The notes below the pieces were generated by a model. The model made no database searches and was not told the origin of the DNA. It saw nothing but the letters and a program-made list of their open reading frames with translations. Made by a program: the position numbers and the translations under genes. Positions 34,054-52,764 of a stretch of DNA of 64,000 nt are shown here, piece by piece; position 1 is the first letter of the stretch, and every line of letters starts with the position of its first letter. Where the stretch lies: the NCBI RefSeq assembly GCF_010993965.1, contig NZ_WIXM01000011.1, forward strand, positions 1-64,000, given 5' to 3'. The stretch is from Gracilibacillus sp. YIM 98692 (GTDB lineage Bacteria; Bacillota; Bacilli; Bacillales; Amphibacillaceae).

Positions 34054-34056
34054 TAA

Positions 34057-36527: not shown

Positions 36528-38394
36528 AATCGCCTTTCAACTTGGAGCTGAAATGGATCCATCTGTAAAAAAAGCATTTGGAAATGCACAAAAACAGATG
36601 GGTAAAATGCGTAAAAGCGTAACGAACACAATTAAAACAGGTGCTAAATTAGCAGCAGGATTTACCGCAGCAGGAGCTGTTGTTGGTGGAGCAGCTGTAG
36701 CAATGGCAAATAAATTTGCTGACACCGCAGACAGAATTGATAAAACGTCGATGAAACTAGGTGTTACCACTGATGCTTTTCAAGAATTAGAATATGCAAT
36801 GGGGCAAGTTGGAGTTAGGCAAGAAACGTTAGAAAAAGGTTTAGGAAGGTTGAACCAACGTTTAGGAGATACCGAAAAGAATGAAAAATATCGTGCTGCT
36901 ATCGAGAATTTAGGTATCGCTACTGAAGATACTAGCGGTAAAACACGTGATGCAGATGAAGTGTTTATGGAAACCGTACAGGCATTACATGAAATGGATG
37001 ATGCAACACAACAAGCAGCAAAAGCAGAAGAAATTTTCGGTACTAGAACTGCACGAGAATTAATGCCTGCTATTAAAGCCGGTGGCGATGCAATTGGTGA
37101 TTTACGGGATGAAGCCCATGAATTAGGACATGTAATAGGAAAAGATAGTGTTGATGCTGGTGTATTATGGGCTGACACAATGGACAAAGCTCAAAAGATG
37201 ATGGGTGGTCTGTTTAATTCAGTAGCATCTAAGGCCCTGCCAATTCTGCAAAAGTTCTTAGATTATGGGATAGATAACATGCCTGTTTTACAAGAAAAAA
37301 TATCAGGAGCAGTATCAAAGGCGGGGGACATCCTTAGTTGGATTGGTAACACAGGAACAGATGTTTTTCAAAACATAAAAGATGCAATAGACGACAACCA
37401 ACCAACAATAGAGCGATTCCAAACATTAGCATCTAATGGCGGTAATATGCTTCAGACTGCTTTCGATAATGCAAAGCCTTATATTAATTGGGTGAAAGAT
37501 GTAGGGATTCCATTAGCAGTGGATGCTATTGCTAATATTATTGAAAAGGGAATGGATTTTTATAATTTAATCAAAAATAACTGGTCTACCATCAAACCAC
37601 TTCTATTAGGTATTGTTATTGTATTAGGTAGCTTAAAAGTTGCGATGATAGCTATGTCAGTGGTACAAACTGTCACAGGATTTATGAAGGCATTTCGAGT
37701 AGCTACAGCAGCAGCGCGATTATCTATGTTAGGTTTAAATGGAGCCATGTTAGCAAATCCAATCACTTGGATTGTTGCACTGATTGTCGGTTTAATCGCT
37801 ACAGGTGTTTTGCTTTATAAAAACTGGGATACCGTAAAAGAAAAGGCAGGCGATTTATGGTCAAGTATCAAAAGTGTGTTTGGTCAAATAGGGTCATTTA
37901 TCGGTGGTATATGGGATGGCGTTCAATCCAAAACAAAAGGGGTCATAAACTCCATTATTATGGCTGTAAATGCCATGATCCGAGGAGTGAACAGCTTTCA
38001 AATAGATGTACCTGATTGGGTTTCCAAGATACCAGGTGTTCCAAACGGGATAACTTCTATTGGCTATAACATTCCAACTATACCAATGCTAGCAGAAGGT
38101 GGTATTACTACTGGATCAACCTTAGCAATGATTGGTGAGGGAGCAGAACAAGAAGCAATCTTACCACTGTCTAAATTACAAGGATTGTTAGACGATCCAG
38201 ATTACGGAGACAGTACAACAAATCACACCAATTATGATGATCAAGATATGACGATTCATTATAATCCTACCGTTATTATAGAAGGCAATGCAGATAAAAA
38301 AACCATTGATAGGGCATTACGAAATGACAGAAAAGAAATTGAAAGAATAATAAAACAATATATCGGGAAAAGAAAAAGACTTTCTTTGAGTTAG
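36508..38394 (+). CDS. Tail tape-measure protein
   Basis: 628 aa. Starts MAKKSFEIAFQLGAEMDPSV; early hydrophobic segment (AGFTAAGAVVGGAAVAMA), helical middle, and membrane-like helices at about 375-430 (LLLGIVIVLGSLKVAMIAM; ANPITWIVALIVGLIATGVL). C-terminal LAEGGITTGSTLAMIGEGAEQEAILPL is typical. The length suggests a tail of roughly 90 nm by the usual scaling. No lytic domain seen. Confidence 0.92.
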   Translation: MAKKSFEIAFQLGAEMDPSVKKAFGNAQKQMGKMRKSVTNTIKTGAKLAAGFTAAGAVVGGAAVAMANKFADTADRIDKTSMKLGVTTDAFQELEYAMGQVGVRQETLEKGLGRLNQRLGDTEKNEKYRAAIENLGIATEDTSGKTRDADEVFMETVQALHEMDDATQQAAKAEEIFGTRTARELMPAIKAGGDAIGDLRDEAHELGHVIGKDSVDAGVLWADTMDKAQKMMGGLFNSVASKALPILQKFLDYGIDNMPVLQEKISGAVSKAGDILSWIGNTGTDVFQNIKDAIDDNQPTIERFQTLASNGGNMLQTAFDNAKPYINWVKDVGIPLAVDAIANIIEKGMDFYNLIKNNWSTIKPLLLGIVIVLGSLKVAMIAMSVVQTVTGFMKAFRVATAAARLSMLGLNGAMLANPITWIVALIVGLIATGVLLYKNWDTVKEKAGDLWSSIKSVFGQIGSFIGGIWDGVQSKTKGVINSIIMAVNAMIRGVNSFQIDVPDWVSKIPGVPNGITSIGYNIPTIPMLAEGGITTGSTLAMIGEGAEQEAILPLSKLQGLLDDPDYGDSTTNHTNYDDQDMTIHYNPTVIIEGNADKKTIDRALRNDRKEIERIIKQYIGKRKRLSLS

Positions 38395-38410
38395 GGGAGG
38401 TGGTAGATAT

Positions 38411-38608
38411 ATGACGTACAGAACGGTTTTAGGTGATACATTTGATTCCATCGCATACGATCACTTTAATGATGAAAAATTAGCCATGGAAATTATAGAA
38501 GCGAACATAGAATACGCAGATGTTTTAGTGTTTGATGCAGGAATTGAATTAACCATTCCTGAAATTGATACAACACCAATCGCCAATCTACCACCTTGGA
38601 AGCGGTGA
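38411..38608 (+). CDS. Tail protein X (LysM-like)
   Basis: 65 aa. VLGDTFDSIAYDHFNDEKLAMEIIEANIEYADV and the final TIPE...PPWKR match the gpX family of P2-like phages. Confidence 0.88.
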   Translation: MTYRTVLGDTFDSIAYDHFNDEKLAMEIIEANIEYADVLVFDAGIELTIPEIDTTPIANLPPWKR

Positions 38609-38613
38609 TTTAA

Positions 38614-39624
38614 TTGCAATCTAGAAAATCTTTTGTAGAAGTAGAGTATCAGGGTGTAGATATAACAGATGATGTACAAAAAGATCTATTGGACTTTGAG
38701 TATACAGATAATGCAAGTGGTGATAGTGACAGCGTTCGATTATCTATGAAAGATGAAAAAAAGATATGGTTAAAACATTGGTTCCCTGAAAAAGGCGATG
38801 TAGTTTTACCAATGATAAAAACAAGAAACTGGCGGAGAAATGACGATCAACAACATTTAAATTGTGGTCGTTTTTTTGTTGATGAACCTTCCTATGACGG
38901 TAGACCAGGATCATTTACACTCGATGCTATATCGTCTCCGTTGAATAGCAATTTTTCTGATGTCGGCAGAAGTAAAATGTGGGAGAACATAACTTTACAG
39001 CAGATTGCTAGCGACATTGCTAATAAAGCTGACCTTCAATTGCAATTTTTAAGTGAATCAAACCCTTTATATGATAAAAAAGAACAATCAGAGACAGATG
39101 ACTCTTCTTTCTTATCGGAATTGTGTAATGAAGAAGGTCTAGCGATGAAAGTAACAGATAAAAAAATAGTTATTTTCGATGAGAAAGATTTTGAAGAGCG
39201 TGAATCTATTGCTACTTATCATGAGTGGGGAGATGTAGTCCGTTCTTATTCTTTCAAGACTTCTTTGACAAACACTAGCTATGATGGGGTGGAAGTTAAA
39301 TATTATGACCCTGAAAAAGGAAAAGTGATCGAGTTTCTTCACAGTATCAGTGATGGAGATAAGATTTATAAAGTGAATAAGCGTGTTAAAACTGGCCAAG
39401 AAGCTAGAAGGTTAGCACAAAAAACACTTAGACGTTTAAACAGGAAAGAAACAACGGGTGAACTTACTGTAATCGGCAATATCGAATTATTAGGAGCCAC
39501 TTGCATTAATTTAGAAGGATTTGGCGCATTTGACGGTAAGTATTTTGTAGAAAAAGCAACACATTCAATTGGCAATGGTTACACTACAGATATTGAAATA
39601 CGAAAAGTATTGGAGGGGTATTAA
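38614..39624 (+). CDS. Late control D / baseplate hub protein
   Basis: 336 aa, P2 gpD-like hub: QSRKSFVEVEYQGVDITDDV at the N-terminus, ITLQQIASDIANKADLQL and SFLSELCNEEGLAMKVTDKK in the middle, and the C-terminal beta domain ending GNGYTTDIEIRKVLEGY. TTG start. Confidence 0.88.
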   Translation: MQSRKSFVEVEYQGVDITDDVQKDLLDFEYTDNASGDSDSVRLSMKDEKKIWLKHWFPEKGDVVLPMIKTRNWRRNDDQQHLNCGRFFVDEPSYDGRPGSFTLDAISSPLNSNFSDVGRSKMWENITLQQIASDIANKADLQLQFLSESNPLYDKKEQSETDDSSFLSELCNEEGLAMKVTDKKIVIFDEKDFEERESIATYHEWGDVVRSYSFKTSLTNTSYDGVEVKYYDPEKGKVIEFLHSISDGDKIYKVNKRVKTGQEARRLAQKTLRRLNRKETTGELTVIGNIELLGATCINLEGFGAFDGKYFVEKATHSIGNGYTTDIEIRKVLEGY

Positions 39625-40175
39625 TGAATTTAGCTAAAAATATGATCCGTGTCGGACAAGTTAACAATGTATATCCTAGCGATGGAAAAATTGATGTTTT
39701 GTTCGCAGATAAAGATGAGGTAGCAACCAAAATACCCCTTTTAAATCACGAATACCATATGCCAAACGTTGAAGAACCAGTACTGTGTTTGTTTTTAGGT
39801 AATGGCATGGAACAAGGTTTTTGTTTAGGTAGCTTTTATTCAGAAGTAACACCTACACCAGTAAATGACAAAAACATCTATCGAAAACAACTAGATGACG
39901 ATACCTATTTAGAATATAACAAGCAACAAAAGGTATTAAAAGTAAATGTGGAACAAGTAGACATACAAGTACGGAATGGGAGAGTAACCATTAATGCGGA
40001 TGAAGTTTTATTAGGTACAAATGCAAGTGAAGGTGTACCTTTAGGTAATCAATTAAAGCAATGGTTGGATAATCACACGCATGATTATAGTTGGACCGAT
40101 GCTGCAGGTAATGATCAAACCTCTAAACCTAACTCTCCTAGTCCATCAGTAAGCGAGAAGGTGAAGGTGGAATGA
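39624..40175 (+). CDS. Baseplate spike protein (gpV-like)
   Basis: 183 aa. IRVGQVNNVYPSDGKIDVLF begins the OB fold, and the C-terminal part (HTHDYSWTDAAGNDQTSKPN) has the metal-binding His pair found at the tip of phage spikes. It pierces the cell envelope. Confidence 0.85.
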   Translation: MNLAKNMIRVGQVNNVYPSDGKIDVLFADKDEVATKIPLLNHEYHMPNVEEPVLCLFLGNGMEQGFCLGSFYSEVTPTPVNDKNIYRKQLDDDTYLEYNKQQKVLKVNVEQVDIQVRNGRVTINADEVLLGTNASEGVPLGNQLKQWLDNHTHDYSWTDAAGNDQTSKPNSPSPSVSEKVKVE

Positions 40176-40576
40176 TAGGCTTTTTTGGAGATATTATTTT
40201 TGAAACCAGCGATGAGCGTATTAGAACGTTTTCTGATTTTGAAAGGAATTCCTCTTCTCGTTGGTCATCGCACGATGTGATTGGCAGAAAGCCTGCATCT
40301 GAATTTATCGGTCCAGGATTAGACACTATATCGTTCACTGTTCATTTAAACGGGCAACACGGGGTGAGGCCAAGAGAAGAAATGAATAGGTGGTTACGAA
40401 AAGAACGTTCTGGAGAAGTTGAAACGTTAGTGATCGGTAATGCAGCACTAGGAATAGATAAATGGCGCATTAGTTCTGTTTCTCAAATGTGGAATGTAGT
40501 CATGAACAAAGGTGAGGTACTGAGCGGAAGCGTAGATATCGAATTAGAAGAATATGTAGAGGTGTTGCGCTCATGA
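40172..40576 (+). CDS. Tail protein gpU-like
   Basis: 134 aa. DVIGRKPASEFIGPGLDTISFTVHL and PREEMNRWLRKERSGEVETLVIG are characteristic of the P2 gpU family. Confidence 0.85.
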   Translation: MIGFFGDIIFETSDERIRTFSDFERNSSSRWSSHDVIGRKPASEFIGPGLDTISFTVHLNGQHGVRPREEMNRWLRKERSGEVETLVIGNAALGIDKWRISSVSQMWNVVMNKGEVLSGSVDIELEEYVEVLRS

Positions 40577-40884
40577 TTGATTATCAAGAGGTAACGATTC
40601 AAAACATCAATTTTAGCGCTATAGGAGCTCAAGAAATCTATGAAAATTTAAGAATATTATATACAACACCAGAAGGCTCTATACCATTTGATAGAGAATT
40701 TGGAATTAATATGGCATTCTTGGACCAGCCAACGCAGATAGCGCAAGGTCGATTAATCGTTGAATACACAGAGAAAACAAAAAGATTTGAACCTCGCGCT
40801 GTGGTACAAGAGGTCTTATTTGATCAAGATGAACAAACAGGTCATTTACAACCAAAGGTGGTGATTGCGATTGACCTTGAATGA
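40573..40884 (+). CDS. Baseplate protein W (gp25-like)
   Basis: 103 aa, gpW/gp25 fold: EIYENLRILYTTPEGSIPFDREFGIN and EPRAVVQEVLF are conserved. Part of the inner baseplate. Confidence 0.88.
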   Translation: MIDYQEVTIQNINFSAIGAQEIYENLRILYTTPEGSIPFDREFGINMAFLDQPTQIAQGRLIVEYTEKTKRFEPRAVVQEVLFDQDEQTGHLQPKVVIAIDLE

Positions 40885-42007
40885 TTTACCTGATGTTACT
40901 TTTATAGAAGCCAATGCTGAAAACATACTAAACAATATGATACGGGATTATGAAAATGCTTATTTTGAATCTACAGGTGAGCGTAAGAAACTGTACCCTG
41001 GTGATCCGATTCGTATTTTTCTATATACACAAGCTCTTAGAGAATTCCAGTTACGAGTTTTGATGAATGATGCTGCTAAACAAAACTTATTAAAATATGC
41101 TAGAAATGAACATTTAGATAATTTAGGTGCTTTTAGCAAAACGAAAAGGTTCCAAGCAACAAAAGCAAAAGCGAAAGTTAAATTCTTTCTAAGTGATGCG
41201 AAGTCAACAGATGAAACTATTCCATCAGGAACAAGAGTTAGTCCTGGTAACGATCTTTATTTTGTTGTAATAGAAGATACTGTAATACAGGCCGGTGAAA
41301 TGGAAGCAGAAGTTAATACGGAATGTTCTACAGAAGGTGTGATTGGTAATGGCTTCACTCCTGGTCAAATTAATATTCTTGTTGACCCATTACCTTGGAT
41401 TGATAGTGTTGAAAATACAAATACGAGTAGTGGCGGGGCAGATAAAGAAGATGATGACAGTCTCAGAGAACGTATACACCTTGCACCGGAAGGTCTATCA
41501 GTAGCAGGTCCGTCAGGTGCTTATGAACATTTTACACGGGAGTATAGCACTCAAGTGGAAGACGTGAAAATATCTTCTCCATCAGCAGGTGTGGTGGACA
41601 TTAGAGTTTTGTTAACAGACGGAGAACTACCAGATCAAACGTTTTTAGACGGATTGAAAGATCATCTTAATGATAAAGAAAAACGTCCTTTGACCGATGA
41701 TGTACAAGTAACTGCACCAACCACAATTACTTACGATCTTGATGTCACTTACTATATTCGCTCAGACAATTCTGATAAAGAGAGCGAATTAAAAACTGAA
41801 ATCGAAGCAGCCATTGATGAATATATAATTTGGCAACGCAACAAGATCGGTCGAGATGTGAACCCTTCAGAGATATATTCTCGAGCGATTCAAGCCGGAG
41901 CTAAACGTATAGAAGTTACACTTCCATCCTTCACTACAGTTGGAGAAAATGATGTGGCCATAGTGGATACGAAGACAGTCACGTACGGAGGCTTAGAAGA
42001 TGAGTAA
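40865..42007 (+). CDS. Baseplate protein J
   Basis: 380 aa. AAKQNLLKYARNEHLDNLGAF, IPSGTRVSPGNDLYF and the GGADKEDDDSLRERIHLAPEG stretch are gpJ hallmarks. TTG start at 40865, or possibly 40871; overlaps the W gene by 20 bp. Confidence 0.9.
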   Translation: MRLTLNDLPDVTFIEANAENILNNMIRDYENAYFESTGERKKLYPGDPIRIFLYTQALREFQLRVLMNDAAKQNLLKYARNEHLDNLGAFSKTKRFQATKAKAKVKFFLSDAKSTDETIPSGTRVSPGNDLYFVVIEDTVIQAGEMEAEVNTECSTEGVIGNGFTPGQINILVDPLPWIDSVENTNTSSGGADKEDDDSLRERIHLAPEGLSVAGPSGAYEHFTREYSTQVEDVKISSPSAGVVDIRVLLTDGELPDQTFLDGLKDHLNDKEKRPLTDDVQVTAPTTITYDLDVTYYIRSDNSDKESELKTEIEAAIDEYIIWQRNKIGRDVNPSEIYSRAIQAGAKRIEVTLPSFTTVGENDVAIVDTKTVTYGGLEDE

Positions 42008-42716
42008 TCGAACTATACAAGAAGTGAAACTTTTAGATTTACTTCCTGAGAATTTACGACATAGTTCTGATATTATAGCTGCTGCCGAATCGATTGACGT
42101 GGGTTTCTTGGCACTCGTTGATGAAGTTGAAAACATTGAAATCCTACCGAGAGTGAATGAACTTGATGAAGATGTATTGGATCACCTGGCCTACTTTTTG
42201 CATGTCGATTTTTATGAGTCTGACTTACCCCTTCAAGAAAAAAGAAACTTGGTTAATCAGTCAGTTATGTGGCATATGCGTAAGGGAACAAAGTGGGCTG
42301 TGGAGGATATTGTTTCTGTCATTTTTGATAACGCGACAGTTACGGAGTGGTTTGAATATGGAGGAAATCCATATTATTTCAAAGTGCAAACTGAGGAAAC
42401 TTTCACAACGGATACGGACCTTAATCGATTAGTGAGACTGATTAATACAACGAAAAATGAACGTTCTTGGCTTGAAGAAGTCATGATCAAGCGTGATCTT
42501 GATGGAAAAATATATTACGGTGGTTTTTATAACCAATATAAAAGAATAAACATCAAGCCTTTAATAATCGTGTACTGGGACGAAACCACATCACAAGACG
42601 AACTGTATGAATTAGATGATACGACATCCTGGGAGGATTATTCACGGGCTGATGTTTTAATTAATTATCTTTTCGATACAACCTCAACAGAGGGTTATTA
42701 CGATTTGGAGGTGTAG
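42000..42716 (+). CDS. Tail protein I
   Basis: 238 aa, P2 gpI-like: LLPENLRHSSDIIAAAESID, RVNELDEDVLDHLAYFLHVDF and MWHMRKGTKWAVEDIVSVIF. Wedge protein of the baseplate. Overlaps J by 8 bp. Confidence 0.88.
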   Translation: MSNRTIQEVKLLDLLPENLRHSSDIIAAAESIDVGFLALVDEVENIEILPRVNELDEDVLDHLAYFLHVDFYESDLPLQEKRNLVNQSVMWHMRKGTKWAVEDIVSVIFDNATVTEWFEYGGNPYYFKVQTEETFTTDTDLNRLVRLINTTKNERSWLEEVMIKRDLDGKIYYGGFYNQYKRINIKPLIIVYWDETTSQDELYELDDTTSWEDYSRADVLINYLFDTTSTEGYYDLEV

Positions 42717-42719
42717 AAA

Positions 42720-43130
42720 ATGGCGAATATTTCACTTAAAAATTTCTTCGATGCCATACGAGGAAGATATAATGATGAGGCAAACAAAGTTGAAGTAACG
42801 GGGAGTAAAGTTGAGATAGTGAATGATGGCAATACTGCTGTCTCTATTCCTGCAGGGAGCTATACTTCGGTAAGTATCGAACCTGCGTATGATTATAGAC
42901 AAGTTGAGATTGGATTTAGAGAAGAAAATAACGAATCATTTCCTTTGAGGGTTAGAGTTGAACCTAGAACCAGCGCTGGTTCTAAAATGGATGACATATC
43001 ACTTATGAATGAAACGAATTTTAGAGGCTCGTTCAGAAATGACGCTATTGGCGAAAGAGTACTAGTTATTTTTAATAATGATGATACTGTATCAAGAAGT
43101 ATTGTTAAATATGTTGCGGGGGTTAGATAA
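42720..43130 (+). CDS. Hypothetical tail-associated protein
   Basis: 136 aa, beta-rich (GSKVEIVNDGNTAVSIPAGS). Unrecognised. Lies directly after gpI and ends one base into the next gene; a virion role is inferred from position. Confidence 0.6.
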   Translation: MANISLKNFFDAIRGRYNDEANKVEVTGSKVEIVNDGNTAVSIPAGSYTSVSIEPAYDYRQVEIGFREENNESFPLRVRVEPRTSAGSKMDDISLMNETNFRGSFRNDAIGERVLVIFNNDDTVSRSIVKYVAGVR

Positions 43131-43333
43131 TGACAAGTCGTGAATGGATAGAAACTAATTTAGTAGTTAATAATGAAGATGCCATTGATTGGGGAAATGG
43201 AATTTTTACTCCGGTAGACAATTTTGTTGATTTTTTTGATGTTGATATTCAAAATGCTTTAGATAATAATGATGATGTAATTCAAGCAATTAAAAATAAT
43301 GATGACGGAAAAGGATTTTATGATTTAATTTAA
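43130..43333 (+). CDS. Small acidic hypothetical protein
   Basis: 67 aa, rich in Asn and Asp (NNDDVIQAIKNNDDGKGFYDL). Last gene before the accessory island. Unrecognised. Confidence 0.55.
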   Translation: MTSREWIETNLVVNNEDAIDWGNGIFTPVDNFVDFFDVDIQNALDNNDDVIQAIKNNDDGKGFYDLI

Positions 43334-43429
43334 AGCTAACGGATGTCTACAGTAAGTATTTATGTATATAAATGTGTATTGATATTTACAAGTAAATAGC
43401 CGACAATAATTACCAAAGGAGTGATGTTG

Positions 43430-43600
43430 TTGGCAACAAAAAGAGTAAATATTACGGTAGAAGAACAGGTTATGGATGAATTCTTTAAATTCGCAAACAA
43501 AAAAGGAATTAAGTTCTCAACATGGGTAAATGTCAAAATGAAAGAGTTCATTGAAGAAGAAAAAATGATTGAAGAATTTAGAAAGAAGCGCTCTGAATAA
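43430..43600 (+). CDS. Ribbon-helix-helix protein
   Basis: 56 aa from TTG 43430 (preceded by AAAGGAG); in-frame ATG at 43424 is possible. KRVNITVEEQVMDEFFKFAN and GIKFSTWVNVKMKEFIEEE form a classical Arc/CopG-type beta-helix-helix. Likely a repressor of the island; first island gene. Confidence 0.65.
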   Translation: MATKRVNITVEEQVMDEFFKFANKKGIKFSTWVNVKMKEFIEEEKMIEEFRKKRSE

Positions 43601-43630
43601 GGGTGCTTTTTTAATTGGAGGAATAAAACA

Positions 43631-44014
43631 ATGAAGAAATTAGAGCATGATTTATTAACAGATAAATATACCGAGGTATGGCATGGAAAAGATTTTAAAT
43701 TTAATGCACCACATACTTTTTCAGTATTAACTAAAGAAACATTCCCTGATGAAGATGGTGTGGGCGAGCATGTAGAATTATTGCAAAAGGTGCATTTCCA
43801 AGAAGGTCCAATCAAAGAATATGGCGTTAATGGTGTAGCAAATGAAGATTTAATTGCAATGGTTATTTCAAGATTAGAACATTTTAATCAATCAGAGTTT
43901 CGTTGTAGAGAGAATTCAATGGCTATTACCAAGTTAGAAGAGGCTTTATTATGGCTACGCAAACGTACAATGGGTAGAGAGAAACGTGGTGTAGAAGGAA
44001 CTCATACAAAGTAA
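43631..44014 (+). CDS. Acb2/Tad1-like anti-defence protein
   Basis: 127 aa. The C-terminal half carries the Acb2/Tad1 hairpin pattern: NEDLIAMVISRLEHF, then CRENSMAITKLEEALLWLRK, ending RGVEGTH. Family members (Acb2 against CBASS, Tad1 against Thoeris) bind and hide the signal nucleotides made by host defence systems. The N-terminal HTFSVLTKE and HVELLQKVHFQEGPIKEYGVNG strands fit the longer Tad1-like subtype. GGAGG precedes the ATG. Ligand unknown. Confidence 0.72.
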   Translation: MKKLEHDLLTDKYTEVWHGKDFKFNAPHTFSVLTKETFPDEDGVGEHVELLQKVHFQEGPIKEYGVNGVANEDLIAMVISRLEHFNQSEFRCRENSMAITKLEEALLWLRKRTMGREKRGVEGTHTK

Positions 44015-44159
44015 GTATAAACCCTTATATATCAACATTTATAGGGATTAGTGACCACGGGAAATAACGGAGGTCTACACCGAAAAATTTTAACAGAATA
44101 TATTGAGAGTTAAATCAAACTAGATTATACTTATTGTAAATATAGGGAGGAATCAGGGA

Positions 44160-44843
44160 ATGTTTTTAAGTGATAGGGATATCAGAAAATTGATGGACAA
44201 AAATGAAATTGTAGATCCGTTTGTACCTGAAAATTGCGAAGGGGCAACAATTGATTTAACTCTCGATGTTCAAATCAAAAAGTTTAAAGAAGAAGGCCAC
44301 TATCGAATGGGTGAAAAATACTCTCAAGACAATTTAGAAAAGGTTGATATTAGCAAAGAGGCATTTTATTTACAGCCGAATGAGTCAGTACTAGTACAAT
44401 CATATGAGTATTTAAAAATCCCGAACAATTTTGCGGGTATTGTTTTTGAGAGGTACAGTATAAAATTACTAGGTCTAGTTGTAAGCCCTAGTAGTTATAT
44501 GAATCCTGGGTATGAAGGCAGATTAACATTTTTAATGACAAATCAATCCAAGACACCAATTCAATTAGTATCTGGGTTAAAGTTTTGCCAACTATCATTA
44601 AGTGAGTTAACTAGTGAGGCTAACTATCCGTATGAAAAACAAGATGCTAAATACATGGGTAGTGTAGAAGTACAAACATCAAAAATACATCTGGATAAAG
44701 AGATACAAACTTATCTTCAAGAAAATGGCCATAAGGATTCATCGATCAAACATGCTAGAGAACTTAGTGAATTCTTAATGGAAAGAATGGATGAAAAAGC
44801 AGACGAGTACGTTAACCAAATCAAAGAAAAAATGGAGTTATAA
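44160..44843 (+). CDS. dCTP deaminase / dUTPase-fold protein
   Basis: 227 aa. MFLSDRDIRKLM at the start, the FERYSIKLLGL helix and MNPGYEGRLTFLMTN with the catalytic Glu position follow the Dcd fold. The usual R-S-S-x-A-R motif is altered (R-Y-S-I-K-L), so activity is uncertain. A C-terminal helical extension (about 180-227) is absent from housekeeping Dcd. Dcd homologues are also known as nucleotide-depleting antiphage proteins. It has its own promoter-like AT-rich leader and is followed closely by a membrane protein gene. Confidence 0.78.
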   Translation: MFLSDRDIRKLMDKNEIVDPFVPENCEGATIDLTLDVQIKKFKEEGHYRMGEKYSQDNLEKVDISKEAFYLQPNESVLVQSYEYLKIPNNFAGIVFERYSIKLLGLVVSPSSYMNPGYEGRLTFLMTNQSKTPIQLVSGLKFCQLSLSELTSEANYPYEKQDAKYMGSVEVQTSKIHLDKEIQTYLQENGHKDSSIKHARELSEFLMERMDEKADEYVNQIKEKMEL

Positions 44844-44848
44844 TATGT

Positions 44849-45202
44849 ATGACTCAATTAAAAGAGGTTCTAATAAAAGTACAAAAGGATAAAATTTTAT
44901 TAAAAGCGCTTGGAGATAGGTATCATACTGCAACTGAGGAAGAAAAAGAACAACTTTTAGACGTTGTACGAGATCAAATAGATCATGACGTTGAAAAATT
45001 GTTAAATGACCATATTAATCATCATAATAAAACGAAGCCAGCCAGAAAAAAGTATATAGGGGCCAAAATCGTTTCAGCTTCATTAAATATTATATCGACT
45101 ATAGGAATCGGTTATTCTGTGAATCAGGAATTATGGGTTCCAGTGATAATTTGTGGTGCTGTACTTTTAGTTAGCCAAGTTATATTGTTTATATTTGAAT
45201 AA
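44849..45202 (+). CDS. Membrane protein with helical cytosolic head
   Basis: 117 aa. A charged helical N-terminal part (about 1-70; TATEEEKEQLLDVVRDQID) and two transmembrane helices (IVSASLNIISTIGIGYSV; VPVIICGAVLLVSQVILFIF). Starts 5 bp after the Dcd-like gene, so the two are likely co-translated. Function unknown. Confidence 0.62.
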   Translation: MTQLKEVLIKVQKDKILLKALGDRYHTATEEEKEQLLDVVRDQIDHDVEKLLNDHINHHNKTKPARKKYIGAKIVSASLNIISTIGIGYSVNQELWVPVIICGAVLLVSQVILFIFE

Positions 45203-45210
45203 AGAGTTGA

Positions 45211-45245
45211 AGAGCAAACAGGTATTAATCTGCTTGCTCTTTTTC
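45211..45245 (+). terminator. Terminator after the Dcd-like operon
   Basis: Stem AGAGCAAACAG / CTGCTTGCTCT (small bulge) followed by TTTTC. Confidence 0.75.
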
Positions 45246-45336
45246 ATGTTTAAGTAAATCACCTGGCGTGATCTCAAGGTAATTACAAAGTTTATTAATG
45301 AGTTCTACTCCTGTATGTTTTATGTCGTTAATAATT
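45225..45336 (-). pseudogene. C-terminal remnant of an XRE repressor
   Basis: On the minus strand the frame reads INDIKHTGVELINKLCNYL then EITPGDLLKHEKEQAD-stop, which is the end of a small Cro/CI-type regulator (the conserved ...L-itpGDLL...). The N-terminal two thirds are missing: upstream lies the leader of the next plus-strand gene. It resembles the intact XRE gene at 45911-46135 in type. Confidence 0.6.
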
Positions 45337-45354
45337 AAAAAGGGCGGTAATATA

Positions 45355-45558
45355 ATGAACCAACAAATTGAAAACAACTTTAAGTATCATGCTCCAAGTG
45401 AAGAGAAAGTCAAAGTTTATAATGGTTTAAGGGAGCACTTTAAGCATATGGCGCAAATAATAGACAGACGTTGCCCTGATAGTAGAGAAAAATCACTAGC
45501 TTTAACAAAGTTAGAAGAATCCATGATGTGGGCAAATGCTTCTATCGCAAGGAACTAA
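45355..45558 (+). CDS. Acb2-like cyclic-nucleotide sponge
   Basis: 67 aa from ATG 45355. Ends with SREKSLALTKLEESMMWAN, then ASIARN, the signature of short Acb2 proteins; EEKVKVYNGLREHFKHMAQII forms the first helix of the hairpin. Acb2 binds cyclic di- and trinucleotides and blocks CBASS. Related to the 127-aa protein at 43631 only in the hairpin. The specific ligand is unknown. Confidence 0.78.
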   Translation: MNQQIENNFKYHAPSEEKVKVYNGLREHFKHMAQIIDRRCPDSREKSLALTKLEESMMWANASIARN

Positions 45559-45643
45559 ATAGAAGATGTCCCTAGTTGCAAAAATATCTCTAATCCTGCA
45601 AAATATTAATCTAATAGAAATTCAAGGATCGGAGAGTGACATT

Positions 45644-45865
45644 ATGACATATTTAGACCTACAAGTACTTGGTCTTATATTAGATATAGTTGGGGTGGTT
45701 ATCTTATCTGCTACTTATCTTGATGTAAGCAAAAAACGTTTGGAGCAGGAATGGGATGAGGTTAATGGTTATCCAGAATTGAGAAAAAAAGAACGAAAAA
45801 TAACTATAACTGGTCTTGTTATAATAATAACAGGATTTGTTTTTCAGATTATTGCTGCGATATAA
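45644..45865 (+). CDS. Small two-helix membrane protein
   Basis: 73 aa from ATG 45644 after GGAGAG. Helices LQVLGLILDIVGVVILSAT and ITITGLVIIITGFVFQII flank a charged loop (KKRLEQEWDEVNGYPELRKK). Unknown; in the same island after the Acb2-like gene. Confidence 0.6.
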   Translation: MTYLDLQVLGLILDIVGVVILSATYLDVSKKRLEQEWDEVNGYPELRKKERKITITGLVIIITGFVFQIIAAI

Positions 45866-45890
45866 TCATTATTTACCCACAGATCACACA

Positions 45891-45932
45891 AAAAAAGACC
45901 CAATCTGATTTTATTCAGAAGGGTCTTTTTCT
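45891..45932. terminator. Bidirectional terminator
   Basis: AAAAAGACCC ... GGGTCTTTTT stem between convergent genes of the island. Confidence 0.85.
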
Positions 45933-46135
45933 AATTGAAGAACATCTGTAATATCACACTCCAGCACTTCACAAATCTTAGCGAGATTATCTAAAGGTAA
46001 TCTTTTTGTTTCATTGTTGCACATCTCACTTATTGATGGATGTCTGACACCTGTCATGCGAGCAAATTCACGATGTGAAATGTTTTTTTCGGAAAGTAAT
46101 TTGTTTAACTTAATTGAAACTTTAATAGTGATCAT
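45911..46135 (-). CDS. XRE-family repressor of the island
   Basis: 74 aa. VSIKLNKLLSEKNISHREFARM, TGVRHPSISEMCNNETKRLP and LAKICEVLECDITDVLQL form a compact HTH of the Cro/CI (HTH_26) type. It is divergent from the recombinase gene with a repeat-rich region between, so it likely controls both. Ends inside the bidirectional terminator. Confidence 0.82.
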   Translation of the reverse strand: MITIKVSIKLNKLLSEKNISHREFARMTGVRHPSISEMCNNETKRLPLDNLAKICEVLECDITDVLQLEKDPSE

Positions 46136-46160
46136 CTCCTTTTTGTTTTACTATAACATA

Positions 46161-46211
46161 TTGACACGATAAACGTAACATGATAAATTTAATGTAACGT
46201 TAAACGTAACG
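46161..46211 (+). promoter_or_regulatory. Promoter and operator repeats of the recombinase gene
   Basis: TTGACA (46161-46166) and TAAATT (46184-46189), spacer 17. The repeat AAACGTAAC occurs at 46171-46179 and 46202-46210, and GTAACGTTAAAC overlaps the second. Probably bound by the XRE repressor encoded alongside. Confidence 0.6.
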
Positions 46212-46235
46212 AAATAATATTAGGGGATGATCAAT

Positions 46236-47093
46236 ATGTTACTATCCGAGGTTTGGTCACTGTTTCAAGAAGAAAAGAAATTGGAATTTTCGCCGTATAC
46301 TATGAAATCGTACAAGCTACAAATGAATTTGTTGATTAGAGACTTAGGAGATAGGCATATTCAAGAAATCTATTACATTCATTTGAAGCAGTACATTAAC
46401 AGACATGCCGAAAGACTTAAAAAGTCAACGTTAGGCTGTAGAGTAAGGTTTATACGATCCGTTTTCAAATGGGCACATGATGAAGGTATTACAAAAACAA
46501 ATGAATCTGCCAAATTAAAAGAACCAAAGCAGGGAATGAGAGTACCTAAATTCATCAAGGATGAAGACATCGAGAGATTAAGAGAATCAGCAAAAGGTGC
46601 TAAAGAAAAGCTGCTAATCAATTTACTTTATTCCAGTGGTTGTCGTATCGGTGAGATACAGGGAATGAATATTAAGGATATCAACTTTGAACAGCGATAT
46701 ATAACAGTGATTGGAAAAGGGAATAAAGAAAGGGAAGCCCCTTTTGATAATAAAACTTATATTTGGTTAAAAGAATATTTAGGTCAGCGTAATGATGATC
46801 TGGAATGCTTATTCCCAACTGATCACACTTTTAAAGAAAACGACGGTAAACCTCGTCGTTTATCTAAAGCGCAACTAAGATATATTGTAAAAAGAATCGC
46901 AAAACGAGCAAACATTGATGTTAGCATTTATCCGCATCGATTTAGACATTCGTTCTGTACTCACTTGATGGATCGTGGAGCTCCAATGGAAGTCATAAGT
47001 TCATTGGCAGGCCATCAAAAAATTGAAACCACACGCATATATGCTGCATTAAGCGGTGAAAGAAGAAGAGAATTATATAAAAAGTATTTTTAG
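46236..47093 (+). CDS. XerC-like tyrosine recombinase in the tail region
   Basis: 285 aa from ATG 46236. N-terminal SAM-like core-binding domain (about 1-85) and catalytic domain: R in YSSGCRIGEIQG, K in VIGKGNKERE, H-x-x-R in HRFRHSFCTHL, H in LAGHQKIETT, Y in RIYAAL. Separate from the prophage integrase and from the small recombinase at 24.3 kb. It closes the accessory island just before the tail fibre gene. A role in mobilising the island or in rearranging nearby DNA is inferred. Confidence 0.87.
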   Translation: MLLSEVWSLFQEEKKLEFSPYTMKSYKLQMNLLIRDLGDRHIQEIYYIHLKQYINRHAERLKKSTLGCRVRFIRSVFKWAHDEGITKTNESAKLKEPKQGMRVPKFIKDEDIERLRESAKGAKEKLLINLLYSSGCRIGEIQGMNIKDINFEQRYITVIGKGNKEREAPFDNKTYIWLKEYLGQRNDDLECLFPTDHTFKENDGKPRRLSKAQLRYIVKRIAKRANIDVSIYPHRFRHSFCTHLMDRGAPMEVISSLAGHQKIETTRIYAALSGERRRELYKKYF

Positions 47094-47116
47094 CACTCTA
47101 TTGAGTGCTATTTTTT
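47091..47116 (+). terminator. Terminator after the recombinase
   Basis: Perfect stem TAGCACTC-TATT-GAGTGCTA followed by TTTTTT. Its arms resemble a CIRCE half by chance, but the spacing (4 bp) is wrong for HrcA. Confidence 0.85.
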
Positions 47117-47137
47117 ATAGAAAGAAGGTGAATCATT

Positions 47138-47752
47138 TTGGCTGATTATACTGGAATGAAATTAACGGACAATGGTCGGGGTCTACAAGCTAAAGCCGAA
47201 GCTGGTGAAACTCTTACCTTTAATAAAGTGAAAATTGGGGATGGAGAATTAGTGGATGGAGATAGCTATGAAACTCGAAACGATCTCGTTAACCCTTTAC
47301 TAGATTTAAACATTTCTGTTGTCCAAGCTGAAGAGGATGGTACGTGTCTGATTCGTTCCAACATGACCAATGAGGGTGTAAATGAAGGATTCTATGTAAA
47401 GGAAGTGGGTATCTTTGCTCAAGATCCTGATATTGGTGAAATTCTTTACGCCTTTTCTACAGCCGTCGTAACGGACTATTTACCACCAGAGGGTGGAGCG
47501 ACAGTTGTAAACAATCAGTTTGATACGATGGTTGTCATAGGAAATGCCGATAGCATCACAGCAGATATCTCTAACACTGGTTTTGTCACACAGGATGATT
47601 TTGATGATCACAAAAATGAATTTGATGCACATAAGTCCGATGATACGAACCCACATAACGTGACCGCATCGCAAGCAGGAGCGTACACCAAAAGTGAAGT
47701 GGACAGTATAACTACGGACTTAGAGATATTTTCAATGTGGGGAGGGTTATAA
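47138..47752 (+). CDS. Tail fibre / tail-collar fibre protein
   Basis: 204 aa. MADYTGMKLTDNGRGLQAKA, FNKVKIGDGEL and EGFYVKEVGIFAQDPD are typical of the N-terminal domain of P2/Mu-type tail fibres that joins fibre to baseplate. SDDTNPHNVTASQAGAYTKSEVD is a common phage fibre repeat. It is short, so the receptor tip may be in the next proteins. Confidence 0.82.
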   Translation: MADYTGMKLTDNGRGLQAKAEAGETLTFNKVKIGDGELVDGDSYETRNDLVNPLLDLNISVVQAEEDGTCLIRSNMTNEGVNEGFYVKEVGIFAQDPDIGEILYAFSTAVVTDYLPPEGGATVVNNQFDTMVVIGNADSITADISNTGFVTQDDFDDHKNEFDAHKSDDTNPHNVTASQAGAYTKSEVDSITTDLEIFSMWGGL

Positions 47753-47755
47753 CAC

Positions 47756-48088
47756 ATGGCTACTAATGAACGGTTATATCAAGGTCAACCCGGAACAACA
47801 GAAGAAACGTTGTATACCGTCGGAACAAATAACACTCATTCAAAGGTTCATAAGTTTCAAGTGACGGTAGCAAATGTAACCAATACGGATGCAACCTTCG
47901 ATTTATCTATTGTGCCTAACGGAGGTTCAGCAGGAGATACAAACCGAATTGCGAAGGGTGTTGAAGTAGCTGGAAACAGTGTTGCGAATTTAACATTTAA
48001 TCAAGTATTAGAAGCTAGCGATTTCCTCAGCGGTTTACAAGGAACAAGTGGAGCACTGACGGTAACTATAAGCGGGGTGATTGAATAA
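47756..48088 (+). CDS. Beta-rich virion protein
   Basis: 110 aa. HKFQVTVANVTNTDATFDLSI and SGALTVTISGVIE suggest a beta sandwich. Likely part of the adsorption apparatus by position. Confidence 0.6.
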   Translation: MATNERLYQGQPGTTEETLYTVGTNNTHSKVHKFQVTVANVTNTDATFDLSIVPNGGSAGDTNRIAKGVEVAGNSVANLTFNQVLEASDFLSGLQGTSGALTVTISGVIE

Positions 48089-48594
48089 TGAGTTTTGACG
48101 TTTTTCCGAAAAGTGGTGGTACGGGTTGGAGAAAATACGAGACGCTTGTACATGAAGATACTTATGAGGTAAACGACACCCTAACCTATGAAAATGTGTT
48201 CGAGGTAAATGGGGAGGGTTATATCACTACTATTTCGCTATGGAATGATACAAGCGATAACGAAAACTTGGCACGAATAACCATAGATGGTGAGGTTGTT
48301 TATGAAACATCTCTTTCCAATATTAACTATACTTTTGGGTTGATAAATCAAAATGAAATACATGGAGGGGACAGCAACAGTTATAGCTATGTTAGGCAAC
48401 CTACTAATAGAACTATACACTCAATAAGAGCCAATGAATATAGTTATCCTTTTATCGAAACAGACCCATCCAATTCGAGTGCGGTTGTATTACCGAGAGA
48501 AATATTTTTTAAATCTTCTATAAAACTCGAAGTACAAACTGATTCTACAACTAGCAGGAGGTTCTACTATCGAATAGCAGGGGGGATTGTTTAA
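48088..48594 (+). CDS. Probable receptor-binding or fibre-tip protein
   Basis: 168 aa. Beta-rich, with YEVNDTLTYENVFEVNGEGYITTI and ARITIDGEVVYETSL. No family recognised; placed between fibre and lysis genes, where host-specificity proteins usually lie. Confidence 0.55.
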   Translation: MSFDVFPKSGGTGWRKYETLVHEDTYEVNDTLTYENVFEVNGEGYITTISLWNDTSDNENLARITIDGEVVYETSLSNINYTFGLINQNEIHGGDSNSYSYVRQPTNRTIHSIRANEYSYPFIETDPSNSSAVVLPREIFFKSSIKLEVQTDSTTSRRFYYRIAGGIV

Positions 48595-48953
48595 TGTTTG
48601 AATATCAAAAAGAAAACGGAATACTTTACAAAATCCGCATAACCAAAAACGGCACAGTTGTTAAAGCGGCGACACCCGAATACTACACAAAAGTCTCAAC
48701 CAATCAAACATCTATTCCAGCCGACGGGCAAACCGAAGCAACAATAACGGCAGAGATTTACAATTACCTAGATGAACCGCAAACGGAATGGGAAGGCGAT
48801 ATTATATTCGAAGTAGAAGGTCAAGAACAAACCGTCTCCACAACGAACGGTCAAGCGGAGATCACCTTTTCTAGTGAAGAGCCAGGAGATTTTACAATTA
48901 AGACAAATGTACCTCAAATGTGTAACGGGGAGGTTGTGATCCATGCCACGTAA
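48594..48953 (+). CDS. Ig-like (Big-1 type) virion protein
   Basis: 119 aa. TSIPADGQTEATITAEIYNYL and TTNGQAEITFSSEEPGDFTI are typical of bacterial Ig-like domain 1. Such domains decorate virions and may bind cell-surface sugars. Confidence 0.65.
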   Translation: MFEYQKENGILYKIRITKNGTVVKAATPEYYTKVSTNQTSIPADGQTEATITAEIYNYLDEPQTEWEGDIIFEVEGQEQTVSTTNGQAEITFSSEEPGDFTIKTNVPQMCNGEVVIHAT

Positions 48954-49119
48954 AGAAAGGCCAATCGTAAACAGACTGAATAACGGTAATAAAAAAGGAT
49001 TTAAAGTGGAGAAGTCGGAAAGGAAGAAGAGGCTAGAAGCGGTTAAAGGCAAGGACAATCCAACCAATCGAGATATTGCAGATTTATTAGAAGAAGTATT
49101 GGAGCGCTTAGACACCTAA
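48943..49119 (+). CDS. Small basic phage protein, 58 aa
   Basis: ATG 48943 after GGGGAGG, overlapping the previous gene. Basic N-terminus (MPRKERPIVNRLNNGNKKG), acidic helix at the end (DIADLLEEVLERLD). Resembles small XkdX-region or pre-holin proteins; function unknown. Confidence 0.58.
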   Translation: MPRKERPIVNRLNNGNKKGFKVEKSERKKRLEAVKGKDNPTNRDIADLLEEVLERLDT

Positions 49120-49161
49120 CCAGGTGTTATTTTTTATGCTAAAAATTAAGGAGGCTAATGC

Positions 49162-49608
49162 ATGGAGATGGTTATTAACCAAGCGAAGGCAGCTACAGCA
49201 GTAGTTGCTTTTATTTTTTCTTATTTGTTCGGGGGTTGGTCACAATTGCTGATAGCGTTGCTTATCTTTATTACATTTGACTATATAACAGGGTTGGTTG
49301 CAGCCGGACGTGAGGGAAAAGTTAAAAGTAAAGTTGGGCTGTACGGAATTACAAAAAAAGTCTTAATCTTTGGTATTGTGGCTATTGCTGGAATGCTGGA
49401 TAAAGTTTATCTTGAACAATTTGGCGAGTCATTGGTTATTGGAGAATGGGAGCTAAGCGTAATGAGCGCAACCATTCTTTATTATTTAGTCAATGAATTT
49501 ATTAGCATTAGCGAGAATCTAGGAAGAATAGGCATGCCAATTCCAACTCCATTGAAACGTGCGATTGAAATTTTCAAAGATGAATCTTATGAAAAGGGTG
49601 GTAAATGA
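49162..49608 (+). CDS. Holin (phage holin family 4 type)
   Basis: 148 aa with three to four membrane helices. FGGWSQLLIALLIFITFDYITGLVAA and KVGLYGITKKVLIFGIVAIAGMLD are typical of Cph1/TcdE-like holins. It overlaps the amidase gene by one base. Confidence 0.88.
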   Translation: MEMVINQAKAATAVVAFIFSYLFGGWSQLLIALLIFITFDYITGLVAAGREGKVKSKVGLYGITKKVLIFGIVAIAGMLDKVYLEQFGESLVIGEWELSVMSATILYYLVNEFISISENLGRIGMPIPTPLKRAIEIFKDESYEKGGK

Positions 49609-50612
49609 TGAGTATAGAAGAAATCATTTGCATTGACCCTGGACATGGCGGAAAAGATCATGGCGGTGGCTCCAACGATCAATTTAAAGAAAAAGAGATG
49701 GTACTTCAAATATCCAAAGAGCAAAAGAAGCATTTTGAGAGAAATGGTATCACTGTGGTGTTAACACGTAGTAATGATGAGTATTTAGATTCTTATGAAC
49801 GTACTTTACGTGTAAAAAGAAGCCAAGCAAATTATTGCATATCAAACCACATTAACGCTTTTAATGGTAAAGCAAATGGTGCTGAAACTATCCACTCAAT
49901 TGCTACAAACGGTAAGCTCGCAGAAGGAATCTTAAAAACGTTAGTAAATGAGGGTGCATCATACAGAAGGTTCTTTTCTAAAAGTGGAAAGAGCGGAAAA
50001 GACTATTACTTCATGCACCGAATGACAGGCCATGTTAAAACAATCATTGTGGAATACGGTTTTGCTGATAACAAAGAAGACACCGATAAAATCATCAATG
50101 ATTGGAAAAAGTATGCGGAAGCTGTAGCTAGATACTATATCGAGAATGTATTTGATAAGACGTACATTCCTGAAAAAGAAATAGCTTCACACAACGTAAA
50201 AAACTTACCAAAAGTAAGATCATTCTCTAAGTATCCACGTTTAGTGAAGATTACAGAAGATGTGAATGCTTATGAACACCCCAACCTCTCCAAATACAGC
50301 AAAATGTTAAGAGAAGGAACCAAATTAAAAGTATACGGAGAAGGAGAAAATGGAGTATGGGCTGCAGGTGGCGGTCTCTTCTTCTCTAAAAAATATGCGG
50401 TAGAAATACCACAAACGATACGCACAGGCGGTTTAACTTCATCTAACGTGGATGAAATGGAAAACTATTTTAGAAAAAATAACTTAGAAGCAAGTGTACA
50501 ATTTGTAGGAGAAGGGAAGAACCCTCATGTACTCGCTAAGATTAAAGGAGGTGATTACGAGAAGTTTTGCAAATGGTTAGACGAAAACAATTGGTGGTAT
50601 AAAGTTATGTGA
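49608..50612 (+). CDS. N-acetylmuramoyl-L-alanine amidase (endolysin)
   Basis: 334 aa. Amidase_3 domain with zinc ligands: H in IDPGHGGKDHGG, E in FKEKEMVLQI, H in ISNHINAF and the catalytic E in IIVEYGFADN. After a linker (about 190-250) the C-terminal part (GLTSSNVDEMENYFRKNN; GGDYEKFCKWLDEN) looks like a SPOR-type wall-binding domain. Cuts host peptidoglycan at lysis. ATG 49605 is also possible. Confidence 0.92.
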   Translation: MSIEEIICIDPGHGGKDHGGGSNDQFKEKEMVLQISKEQKKHFERNGITVVLTRSNDEYLDSYERTLRVKRSQANYCISNHINAFNGKANGAETIHSIATNGKLAEGILKTLVNEGASYRRFFSKSGKSGKDYYFMHRMTGHVKTIIVEYGFADNKEDTDKIINDWKKYAEAVARYYIENVFDKTYIPEKEIASHNVKNLPKVRSFSKYPRLVKITEDVNAYEHPNLSKYSKMLREGTKLKVYGEGENGVWAAGGGLFFSKKYAVEIPQTIRTGGLTSSNVDEMENYFRKNNLEASVQFVGEGKNPHVLAKIKGGDYEKFCKWLDENNWWYKVM

Positions 50613-50661
50613 AATTTCAGTGAATGCAAACGATCGATTTATCTATAAGCGACAAAGGTTC

Positions 50662-50695
50662 GGGCCATGGTGTGGAAAGCCATGGCTCTTTTTTT
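50662..50695 (+). terminator. Late operon terminator
   Basis: Stem GGGCCATGG / CCATGGCTC (50662-50670, 50680-50688; one G-U) followed by seven Ts. Confidence 0.85.
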
Positions 50696-50823
50696 GTTTG
50701 AATAAGTTTAGTTTTATTTGATTATAATGTTAAGGATTAGTTGACAAAGGATGAAAAATTATGGTAAAAGTTATTAAAGAACTATTATCTGATACTTTGA
50801 GAATAGGTAGGGAGGCTTATTCT

Positions 50824-51051
50824 ATGAAAACAGCAGAAATTAATGCCGTATATAGTGAAGAGTTAGAAGAATTCCTGGATTCTTTAGGCGTACTCGAAGA
50901 AATCAAAAATGGTGAAAAGAAATGTTATTTTTGTAATAGTATTGTGGATGTTAGTGATATCCAAACGGTATTTCCTATGGATGATGATGTTCAAATCTGT
51001 TGCAATAAATCAAAGTGTAATGATGCCTTTAATAGAAAGGTAGAAAAGTAA
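50824..51051 (+). CDS. Small zinc-ribbon-like protein, first gene of a moron unit
   Basis: 75 aa from ATG 50824, which has an AGGGAGG site 8 bp upstream; an ATG at 50761 in frame would add 21 residues. CYFCNSIVD and QICCNKSKC supply four or more cysteines for metal binding. It is followed 1 bp later by a membrane protein gene. Not recognised. Confidence 0.6.
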   Translation: MKTAEINAVYSEELEEFLDSLGVLEEIKNGEKKCYFCNSIVDVSDIQTVFPMDDDVQICCNKSKCNDAFNRKVEK

Positions 51052-51052
51052 A

Positions 51053-52120: not shown

Positions 52121-52138
52121 TACGTTGTAATATTTTTA

Positions 52139-52173
52139 GGAAAAACCCATCACTAATTAGTGGTGGGTTTTCC
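52139..52173 (+). terminator. Terminator of the two-gene unit
   Basis: GGAAAAACCCATCACTAA and its near-complement form a 12-bp stem with a tail of TTTTCC. Confidence 0.78.
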
Positions 52174-52202
52174 ATTAAATAACAAATGTGCTATAATATT
52201 TT

Positions 52203-52276
52203 GAAAGGGAGTGCCCCTCCCTGATATTTCCTTACCAACACTACATATTGGAGACCCTGCAAAGTGTTGGTAAGGA
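52203..52276 (+). ncRNA. Candidate structured small RNA
   Basis: A TATAAT at 52192-52197 (weak TTCCAT -35, 16-bp spacer) is followed by two hairpins: AGGGAG/CTCCCT (52206-52211, 52217-52222) and a perfect 13-bp stem CCTTACCAACACT / AGTGTTGGTAAGG (52230-52242, 52263-52275) closing a 20-nt loop. No T tract follows, so it is not an ordinary terminator, and no ORF covers it. It lies between convergent genes. Function unknown; an operator or protein-binding RNA is possible. Confidence 0.35.
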
Positions 52277-52618: not shown

Positions 52619-52634
52619 TTTTAACCTCCTGTAC

Positions 52635-52648
52635 AGAACGTTTGTTCT
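52635..52648. promoter_or_regulatory. LexA (DinR) box of yolD
   Basis: AGAAC-GTTT-GTTCT, fitting the GAAC-N4-GTTC core of Bacillus SOS boxes. On the minus strand it lies just downstream of a TTGTTA / TATAAT promoter with a 17-bp spacer. Confidence 0.75.
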
Positions 52649-52764
52649 TATTATATGCAAATGAGGATAAAATAACAACCGCAAGTACGTAAAGAAATCT
52701 TAACAAGGAAATAATTAGTAAATGTCGAATAAAATTATCGAAGTCAAAAAGAGGGAGGTGTATG

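Follow-up and report, generated by a model that had tools for sequence, protein, structure and literature searches.

Why would a phage retain two signal-binding sponges, given that their published ligand ranges overlap and that the host genome holds both a CBASS-like operon (cyclic oligonucleotide-based antiphage signaling system) and a Thoeris operon of the macro type? The question is raised by the first 64,000 nucleotides of contig NZ_WIXM01000011.1 of Gracilibacillus sp. YIM 98692, the whole of which is referred to below as the window. A prophage in this window carries a Tad1 gene and an Acb2-type gene in a short cargo block among its tail genes. The block probably serves the prophage in counter-defence, as an island of two sponges with complementary yet overlapping range; their signal binding would follow from family membership.

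Two hairpin proteins from separate sponge families

The argument turns on two genes of the plus strand.

43631..44014, + strand: Tad1, the first sponge, 127 amino acids (aa); matches PDB 8kbb and phrog_2428; carries the motif CRENSMAITKLEEALLWL
45355..45558, + strand: Acb2-type hairpin protein, the second sponge, 67 aa; matches PF24729, phrog_1454 and, by profile, 9ptq; carries the motif SREKSLALTKLEESMMWA

The interval 43631-45558 opens with the first codon of Tad1 and closes with the stop codon of Acb2; a minus-strand remnant of a helix-turn-helix (HTH) regulator lies between the two genes, as do a gene for a dCTP-deaminase-like protein and one for a membrane protein. A sequence-only reading of this interval had reported two different proteins with a hairpin signature. 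Both motifs were recovered in open frames of the plus strand, the first in 43631-44014 and the second in a listed open reading frame (ORF) at 45298-45558. The same reading had placed the proteins in Acb2/Tad1-type families, and this was borne out, with two distinct members in one small island: the long protein groups with Tad1 and the short one with Acb2.

The long protein was aligned with the solved Tad1 structure 8kbb over residues 4-124 of 127 (E=8.1e-37; E=1.7e-43 by profile), with a second solved Tad1, 7uav, over residues 47-127 (E=6.7e-13), and with phrog_2428 over its full length, residues 1-127 (E=4.5e-47). Eight relatives are 50-77% identical to it along the whole length. As in 8kbb and 7uav, a C-terminal hairpin segment contains REN..A(I/L)T; unlike the eight aligned relatives, the window protein has 2-10 extra residues before HVELLQ. 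From these alignments we classify it as a full-length Tad1. A search with the Pfam family model PF24729, which the earlier reading had named as a check, gave a divided answer: the short protein scored 81.6 bits, whereas the long one reached 23.8 bits against a cut-off of 27. At E<=0.01 the model is also silent on Tad1 relatives in a Pullulanibacillus pueri contig (L118 10001-10354) and in Lactococcus phage 1706 (L090 5980-6333), which indicates that PF24729 is a weak model for Tad1. Pfam-based surveys may under-count Tad1, as the two missed relatives illustrate. The homologue in phage 1706 is labelled 'structural protein', and that in Bacillus phage P59 (L174 2989-3351) 'putative structural protein'; should the 1706 label derive from virion proteins, one could imagine a sponge carried in the particle.

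The short protein matched PF24729 over the whole profile (positions 1-58/58, E=4.6e-23, 81.6 bits) and phrog_1454 at E=5.2e-28. Its family profile retrieved PDB 9ptq ('Acb2 homolog 43') at E=1.2e-10, and the single sequence only at E=0.01. Structure prediction, also proposed in the earlier reading, agreed with a hairpin: the AlphaFold2 model (predicted local distance difference test, pLDDT, 92.6) has one short and two long helices (H3-8, H16-39, H44-66). This is like the arrangement of a short N-terminal helix and two long helices described for Acb2 (T4 Vs.4 7uq2, 8h2x; 9ptq) in the part of PMC12043709 consulted; unlike the chains of 9ptq (76 aa) and 7uq2 (89 aa), the window protein is only 67 aa long. 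Foldseek ranked T4 Vs.4 first (probability 0.99, but E 0.085). In VIA-align, T4 Vs.4 and Acb2 8h2x were the top two (Z 7.3/6.6, root-mean-square deviation (rmsd) 2.6/2.7, 61 residues aligned), with Z values not clearly over those of unrelated helical hairpins (rows 3-6, Z 6.5). Membership in the Acb2 family therefore rests on sequence, and the predicted fold is consistent with it; on that footing the short protein is assigned as an Acb2-type hairpin protein. The listed ORF 45298-45558 (86 aa) would start at 45298; this start was rejected, as homologues align from MNQQIENN onward in an alignment of 42 sequences, 40 of them drawn from the 76 viral loci and the other two being the window and L118. 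The start is most likely the ATG at 45355.

We considered whether one sponge had recently arisen from the other by duplication and rejected this: the two genes share a 37-nt stretch at 81% identity, yet each protein is far nearer its own family elsewhere. The local alignment of Tad1 with Acb2 scored 67, against 136-240 for Acb2 with other Acb2s and 247-491 for Tad1 with the other Tad1s aligned. By these scores the two window proteins belong to separate lineages.

The pair was found in three settings and two gene orders, in unrelated phages, but it is rare. An Acb2-like ORF lies directly before a Tad1-like ORF, with a 1-nt gap, in the Lactococcus phages 1706 and P1046. These are the two families of the window, here side by side, but the order is reversed, and the scanned stretches (L090, L091, L108) contain no dCTP-deaminase-like cassette. 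In the Pullulanibacillus pueri contig, Acb2 (PF24729 87.3 bits) lies 1.2 kb upstream of Tad1, among ORFs that are phage tail genes by eye. The Acb2 profile used for this pairing scan had absorbed Tad1 hairpins, and confirmation of Acb2 by Pfam is limited to L090 and L118: the ORF of phage 1706 scored 54.1 bits with PF24729, and that of P1046 was recognised through our own profile alone. Tad1 was matched by 123 phage records and Acb2 by 331, Lactococcus accounting for 5 in each; the pairing was examined in 2 of the 5 records per family (1706 and P1046), and both have it. In cellular genomes PF24729 was found in 1/17 of the genus, 8/159 of the family and 9/397 of the order, this genome being included each time, and these counts under-count Tad1, which scores below the cut-off. 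Two Acb2-type matches, on separate contigs, occur in one genome of the family (G040). The Tad1 profile matched 1/156 family genomes, namely this one. T4, with its anti-CBASS proteins Acb1 and Acb2, resembles the window prophage in combining at least two anti-signal proteins in a single phage (PMC11722364, seen in part); T4 pairs a nuclease with a sponge, whereas the window prophage has two sponges with a common hairpin motif. In the open-licence literature, judged on titles and abstract openings, we found no report on point of Tad1 and Acb2 in one phage.

Host alarm systems and the proposed action of the two sponges

According to the part of PMC12043709 consulted, both sponges bind cyclic di- and trinucleotides, Acb2 in separate pockets, and Tad1 also takes glycocyclic ADP-ribose (gcADPR); the sponges hold signals stoichiometrically without degrading them. 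Upon prophage induction or phage infection, the window's Tad1 would capture signals of the cyclic ADP-ribose type as well as cyclic di- and trinucleotides, Acb2 would supply extra capacity for the latter, and Thoeris- and CBASS-type effectors would thus stay off until new virions have formed. A wider ligand range and a greater total binding capacity would come from having two sponges with separate pockets, and capacity would matter because sponges act stoichiometrically.

The host genome contains candidate targets of both kinds. The CBASS-like operon (L137, G000:C56) encodes a CD-NTase (SMODS E=7.3e-44) directly beside a SLATT_6 effector (E=4.1e-48), the gene arrangement expected of CBASS, and the two ORFs overlap as listed (L137 2427-3305, 3269-3922). 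PADLOC reported Cyclase at 1.6e-120 and 2TM Effector at 4.3e-48 on this operon. The Thoeris operon (L136, G000:C34) joins ThsB_TIR (E=3.3e-23) and ThsA_Macro (E=4.8e-57), again in ORFs that overlap as listed (L136 8210-8782, 8772-9662); this is the gene pair of TM-macro Thoeris, with the membrane part recognised by eye, and PADLOC gave ThsB at 1.8e-74 and ThsA at 1.6e-103. An ORF resembling a tyrosine recombinase by eye lies 434 bp from the Thoeris operon (L136 8210-9662). Both systems are uncommon in family genomes (SMODS in 7/156, ThsB_TIR in 11/156), and three genomes, G000 (this host), G022 and G024, are in both lists. Panoptes, a system that reacts to sponges (PMC12657218, PMC12657230, both seen in part), has the marker mCpol PF18182, which gave no match at E<=0.001 in the host genome (98.77% complete).

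Counter-defence against both signal classes fits a host genome with CBASS-like and Thoeris operons, which lends some weight to the counter-defence role proposed in the earlier reading. A clean split of one sponge per signal is not supported: because the published ranges overlap (PMC12043709, part consulted), having both sponges would mean wider range and capacity, not a clean division of labour. The suggestion that the ligands may include nucleotides not yet known is speculation, and nothing in the analysis speaks for such ligands.

Several observations weigh against a counter-defence island of two sponges. The two genes are 1.3 kb apart with an antisense HTH remnant between them, and promoter and terminator counts equal those of shuffled sequence (22 vs 21.0 and 2 vs 1.8), which leaves co-expression of Tad1 and Acb2 without such support. 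Tad1 stays under the curated PF24729 cut-off (23.8 vs 27 bits). Pairing is rare within the stretches covered, with Acb2 near Tad1 in 1/20 genome_contigs loci (L118) and in 1/11 viral loci, the sole paired viral locus being the window prophage's own record; several Tad1 loci are short (L115, L121, L127), so that a neighbouring Acb2 could be missed. That the lysogen has the sponges together with both target systems is an association seen in one genome. Finally, the host Thoeris is of the macro type, which a classical Tad1 would not necessarily block. In the parts of the two sources consulted, macro-type ThsA binds ADP-ribose (ADPR) and imidazole adenine dinucleotide and neither 2' cyclic ADP-ribose (2'cADPR) nor 3'cADPR (PMC11204291), and the signal of type II Thoeris, the macro kind, is given as His-ADPR (PMC12847820). 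A classical Tad1 might therefore miss the host Thoeris because the macro-type effector ignores the cADPR isomers that Tad1 binds.

This last point also feeds the alternative that survives best, in which both sponges would target CBASS-type cyclic oligonucleotides only, the cADPR pocket of Tad1 would be irrelevant here, and the second sponge would provide a back-up in dosage or affinity (for example trinucleotides vs dinucleotides). Such redundancy draws on the overlap of Tad1 and Acb2 ligand ranges in the literature (PMC12043709, part consulted) as well as on a host Thoeris that would not respond to 2'cADPR or 3'cADPR. Yet Tad1 keeps 50-77% identity to its eight relatives over the full length, together with full-length similarity to a solved Tad1, and phages may encounter other hosts with other Thoeris types. 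We regard simple redundancy as unlikely, although it deserves to be weighed seriously.

A second alternative concerns the two genes that lie between Tad1 and the HTH remnant.

44160..44843, + strand: 227-aa protein of the dCTP-deaminase fold in which the catalytic Glu is missing; helical extension at the C-terminus; DCD PF22769 E=9.5e-28
44849..45202, + strand: 117-aa protein directly downstream of the dCTP-deaminase-like gene, with a hydrophilic N-terminal and a hydrophobic C-terminal part and an invariant N (..GYSVN..)

The sponges could titrate a nucleotide read by this deaminase-like/membrane pair, in which case the block would be a sensor-effector system with its antidote and not, or not only, a counter-defence island. 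The position of the cassette between both sponges, with Acb2 coming after the 117-aa gene, is in keeping with such self-regulation, as is the finding that pseudo-deaminase and membrane protein adjoin in 10/10 loci and are fused in L154. However, no sponge was found in the scanned stretches around 8/9 other cassette loci (L101-L106, L169, L153 within 3.7 kb), the ninth (L172), by annotation only, names none, and the cassette is absent from most Tad1 and Acb2 loci, which makes this explanation very improbable.

It is hardly credible, in turn, that the Tad1-like protein serves in the virion or in morphogenesis and that its hairpin is a mere structural motif: the 'structural protein' label in Lactococcus phage 1706, the 'putative structural protein' labels in Bacillus phages P59 and CM1 and the setting among tail genes point that way, but full-length similarity to a solved Tad1, the Tad1 annotation of the SPG24 and SBSphiJ7 homologues and the place of the P59 gene next to a recombinase and near a DNA polymerase all argue otherwise, and a sponge packaged in virions could still sponge. 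The counter-defence island with two sponges thus remains the preferred reading.

The intervening cassette, the cargo block and the prophage

When the 227-aa protein was aligned with 2qxx, the position of E129 was found to be occupied by Leu, so that the catalytic Glu expected of a dCTP deaminase is missing. The catalytic residue, which we take to be E138 in the E. coli enzyme and E129 in that of M. tuberculosis, agrees with the E138A/E138D structure entries. A hydrophobic residue replaces it in the window protein and in 9/9 relatives sharing the extension (L101-L106, L153, L169, L172), whereas ordinary dCTP deaminases keep Glu (8/8 read; of nine short matches, eight fitted the motif pattern, and the ninth, L161, did not and is outside the count). 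The predicted structure, of middling confidence (pLDDT 73.8, 7 sequences), was nearest to the E. coli and M. tuberculosis dCTP deaminases (Z 20.6/20.4, rmsd 2.2/2.1, 153/152 residues aligned). In the phages collection 103 records match the 227-aa protein, all at <60% identity, and among the 25 matches listed all are deaminase/dUTPase-like.

Less can be read from the 117-aa protein itself. No Pfam family scored over cut-off, a match to YtxC being below it. A SLATT identity is not claimed, SLATT_1 reaching just E=0.065. The hydropathy scan gave one peak over threshold, and a two-segment membrane hairpin was read by eye from the alignment. A direct search returned the prophage's own record only in viral_contigs and none in plasmids; the family link rests on an iterated profile and on gene position. 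A gene of this type follows next after the dCTP-deaminase-like gene in the window and nine other loci (interrupted in L104, by eye by transposase genes), and a DUF1653 gene follows the cassette in several of them (Pfam-tested in L101, by eye elsewhere). In the fusion (L154, G051), one 212-codon frame joins a deaminase-like domain (PF22769 E=7.5e-13) to the hydrophobic region of the 117-aa type of protein (E=1.9e-8). A copy found in Alkalihalophilus pseudofirmus, on its plasmid pBpOF4-01, has the plain annotation dCTP deaminase. The family is rare: among 156 family genomes it is full-length in G000 and G089 and fused in G051, and it was found in 1/397 order genomes at E<=1e-29.

We tentatively propose that the cassette may be a nucleotide-gated membrane effector acting in defence or superinfection exclusion, with the catalysis-lost deaminase fold as sensor and the 117-aa protein as effector; the prophage would then hold both sponges and an alarm of its own. 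Against this, the 227-aa protein passes the NCBIfam dCTP deaminase equivalog TIGR02274 (121.8 vs 92.8 bits), and automatic annotation would name it a dCTP deaminase. No report on point of a dCTP-deaminase-like/transmembrane antiphage pair was found in the open-licence literature, judged on titles and abstract openings. PADLOC, whose library covers defence and not counter-defence, matched none of five island proteins at E<=0.1.

The remaining features of the block are these.

42720..47093, no strand: cargo block, 4.4 kb, between a tail gene (42000-42716) and a tail-fibre gene (47138-47752)
43421..43600, + strand: possible ribbon-helix-helix protein, 59 aa; weak matches to RHH_5 (E=0.076), phrog_38719 (function unknown, E=0.0012) and the Arc-like phrog_582 (E=0.018)
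45225..45377, - strand: HTH_26 regulator remnant, C-terminal end alone; PF13443 profile positions 41-63 of 63, E=3.7e-5
45566..45865, + strand: 99-aa protein whose two hydrophobic segments show as hydropathy peaks at 34 and 81
45911..46135, - strand: intact Cro/C1-type regulator, 74 aa; HTH_26 E=3.4e-18
46227..47093, + strand: the prophage's second tyrosine recombinase, 288 aa; Phage_integrase PF00589 E=3.3e-39, phrog_1 8.2e-52

The block thus reads, in order: two small genes, the possible ribbon-helix-helix gene, Tad1, the dCTP-deaminase-like gene, the 117-aa gene, the HTH_26 remnant (-), Acb2, the 99-aa gene, the HTH_26 regulator (-) and the tyrosine recombinase. The first two (42720-43333), small and of unassigned nature, may perhaps be tail genes rather than cargo. 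In a sibling prophage (L142), homologues of the block-flanking genes (48% and 34.5% identity) are only 10 bp apart, and this one sibling is the empty-site evidence for the block; in a second (L143), different genes occupy the site and no homologue of the 47138 gene was found at E<=1e-3. The second tyrosine recombinase sits among tail genes, away from the main integrase. Acb2 and the 99-aa gene are bracketed by the truncated and the intact HTH_26 regulators, which hints at an earlier rearrangement of the cargo. A search of 43000-47300 for bracketing long repeats, such as mobile-cassette ends, yielded none that was convincing. The 99-aa protein had no Pfam match over cut-off, no PHROG at E<=1 and no PADLOC match at E<=0.1.

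As to the prophage itself, the window holds one with a contractile tail, for which PHROGs names terminase, portal, major head protein, tail sheath, tape measure and baseplate wedge.

~12395..56479, no strand: prophage according to IMG/VR UViG_2891298299_000001, 44085 bp, projected by constant offset
10793-11989, - strand: main integrase, beyond the IMG/VR boundary of the prophage
13066-13422, - strand: repressor-like gene

The projection equates contig position 31237 (L004) with window position 43631; its offset was taken from the Tad1 locus alone.

Both sponge families are already known, and the uncommon feature of this prophage is their pairing. Informative specificities would emerge if the window Tad1 turned out to take up His-ADPR, the macro-type signal, or if Acb2 bound whatever the CD-NTase/SLATT operon produces. 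The dCTP-deaminase-like/117-aa cassette is possibly more novel than the sponges: with its fused homologue it is a separate candidate for a new nucleotide-gated effector.

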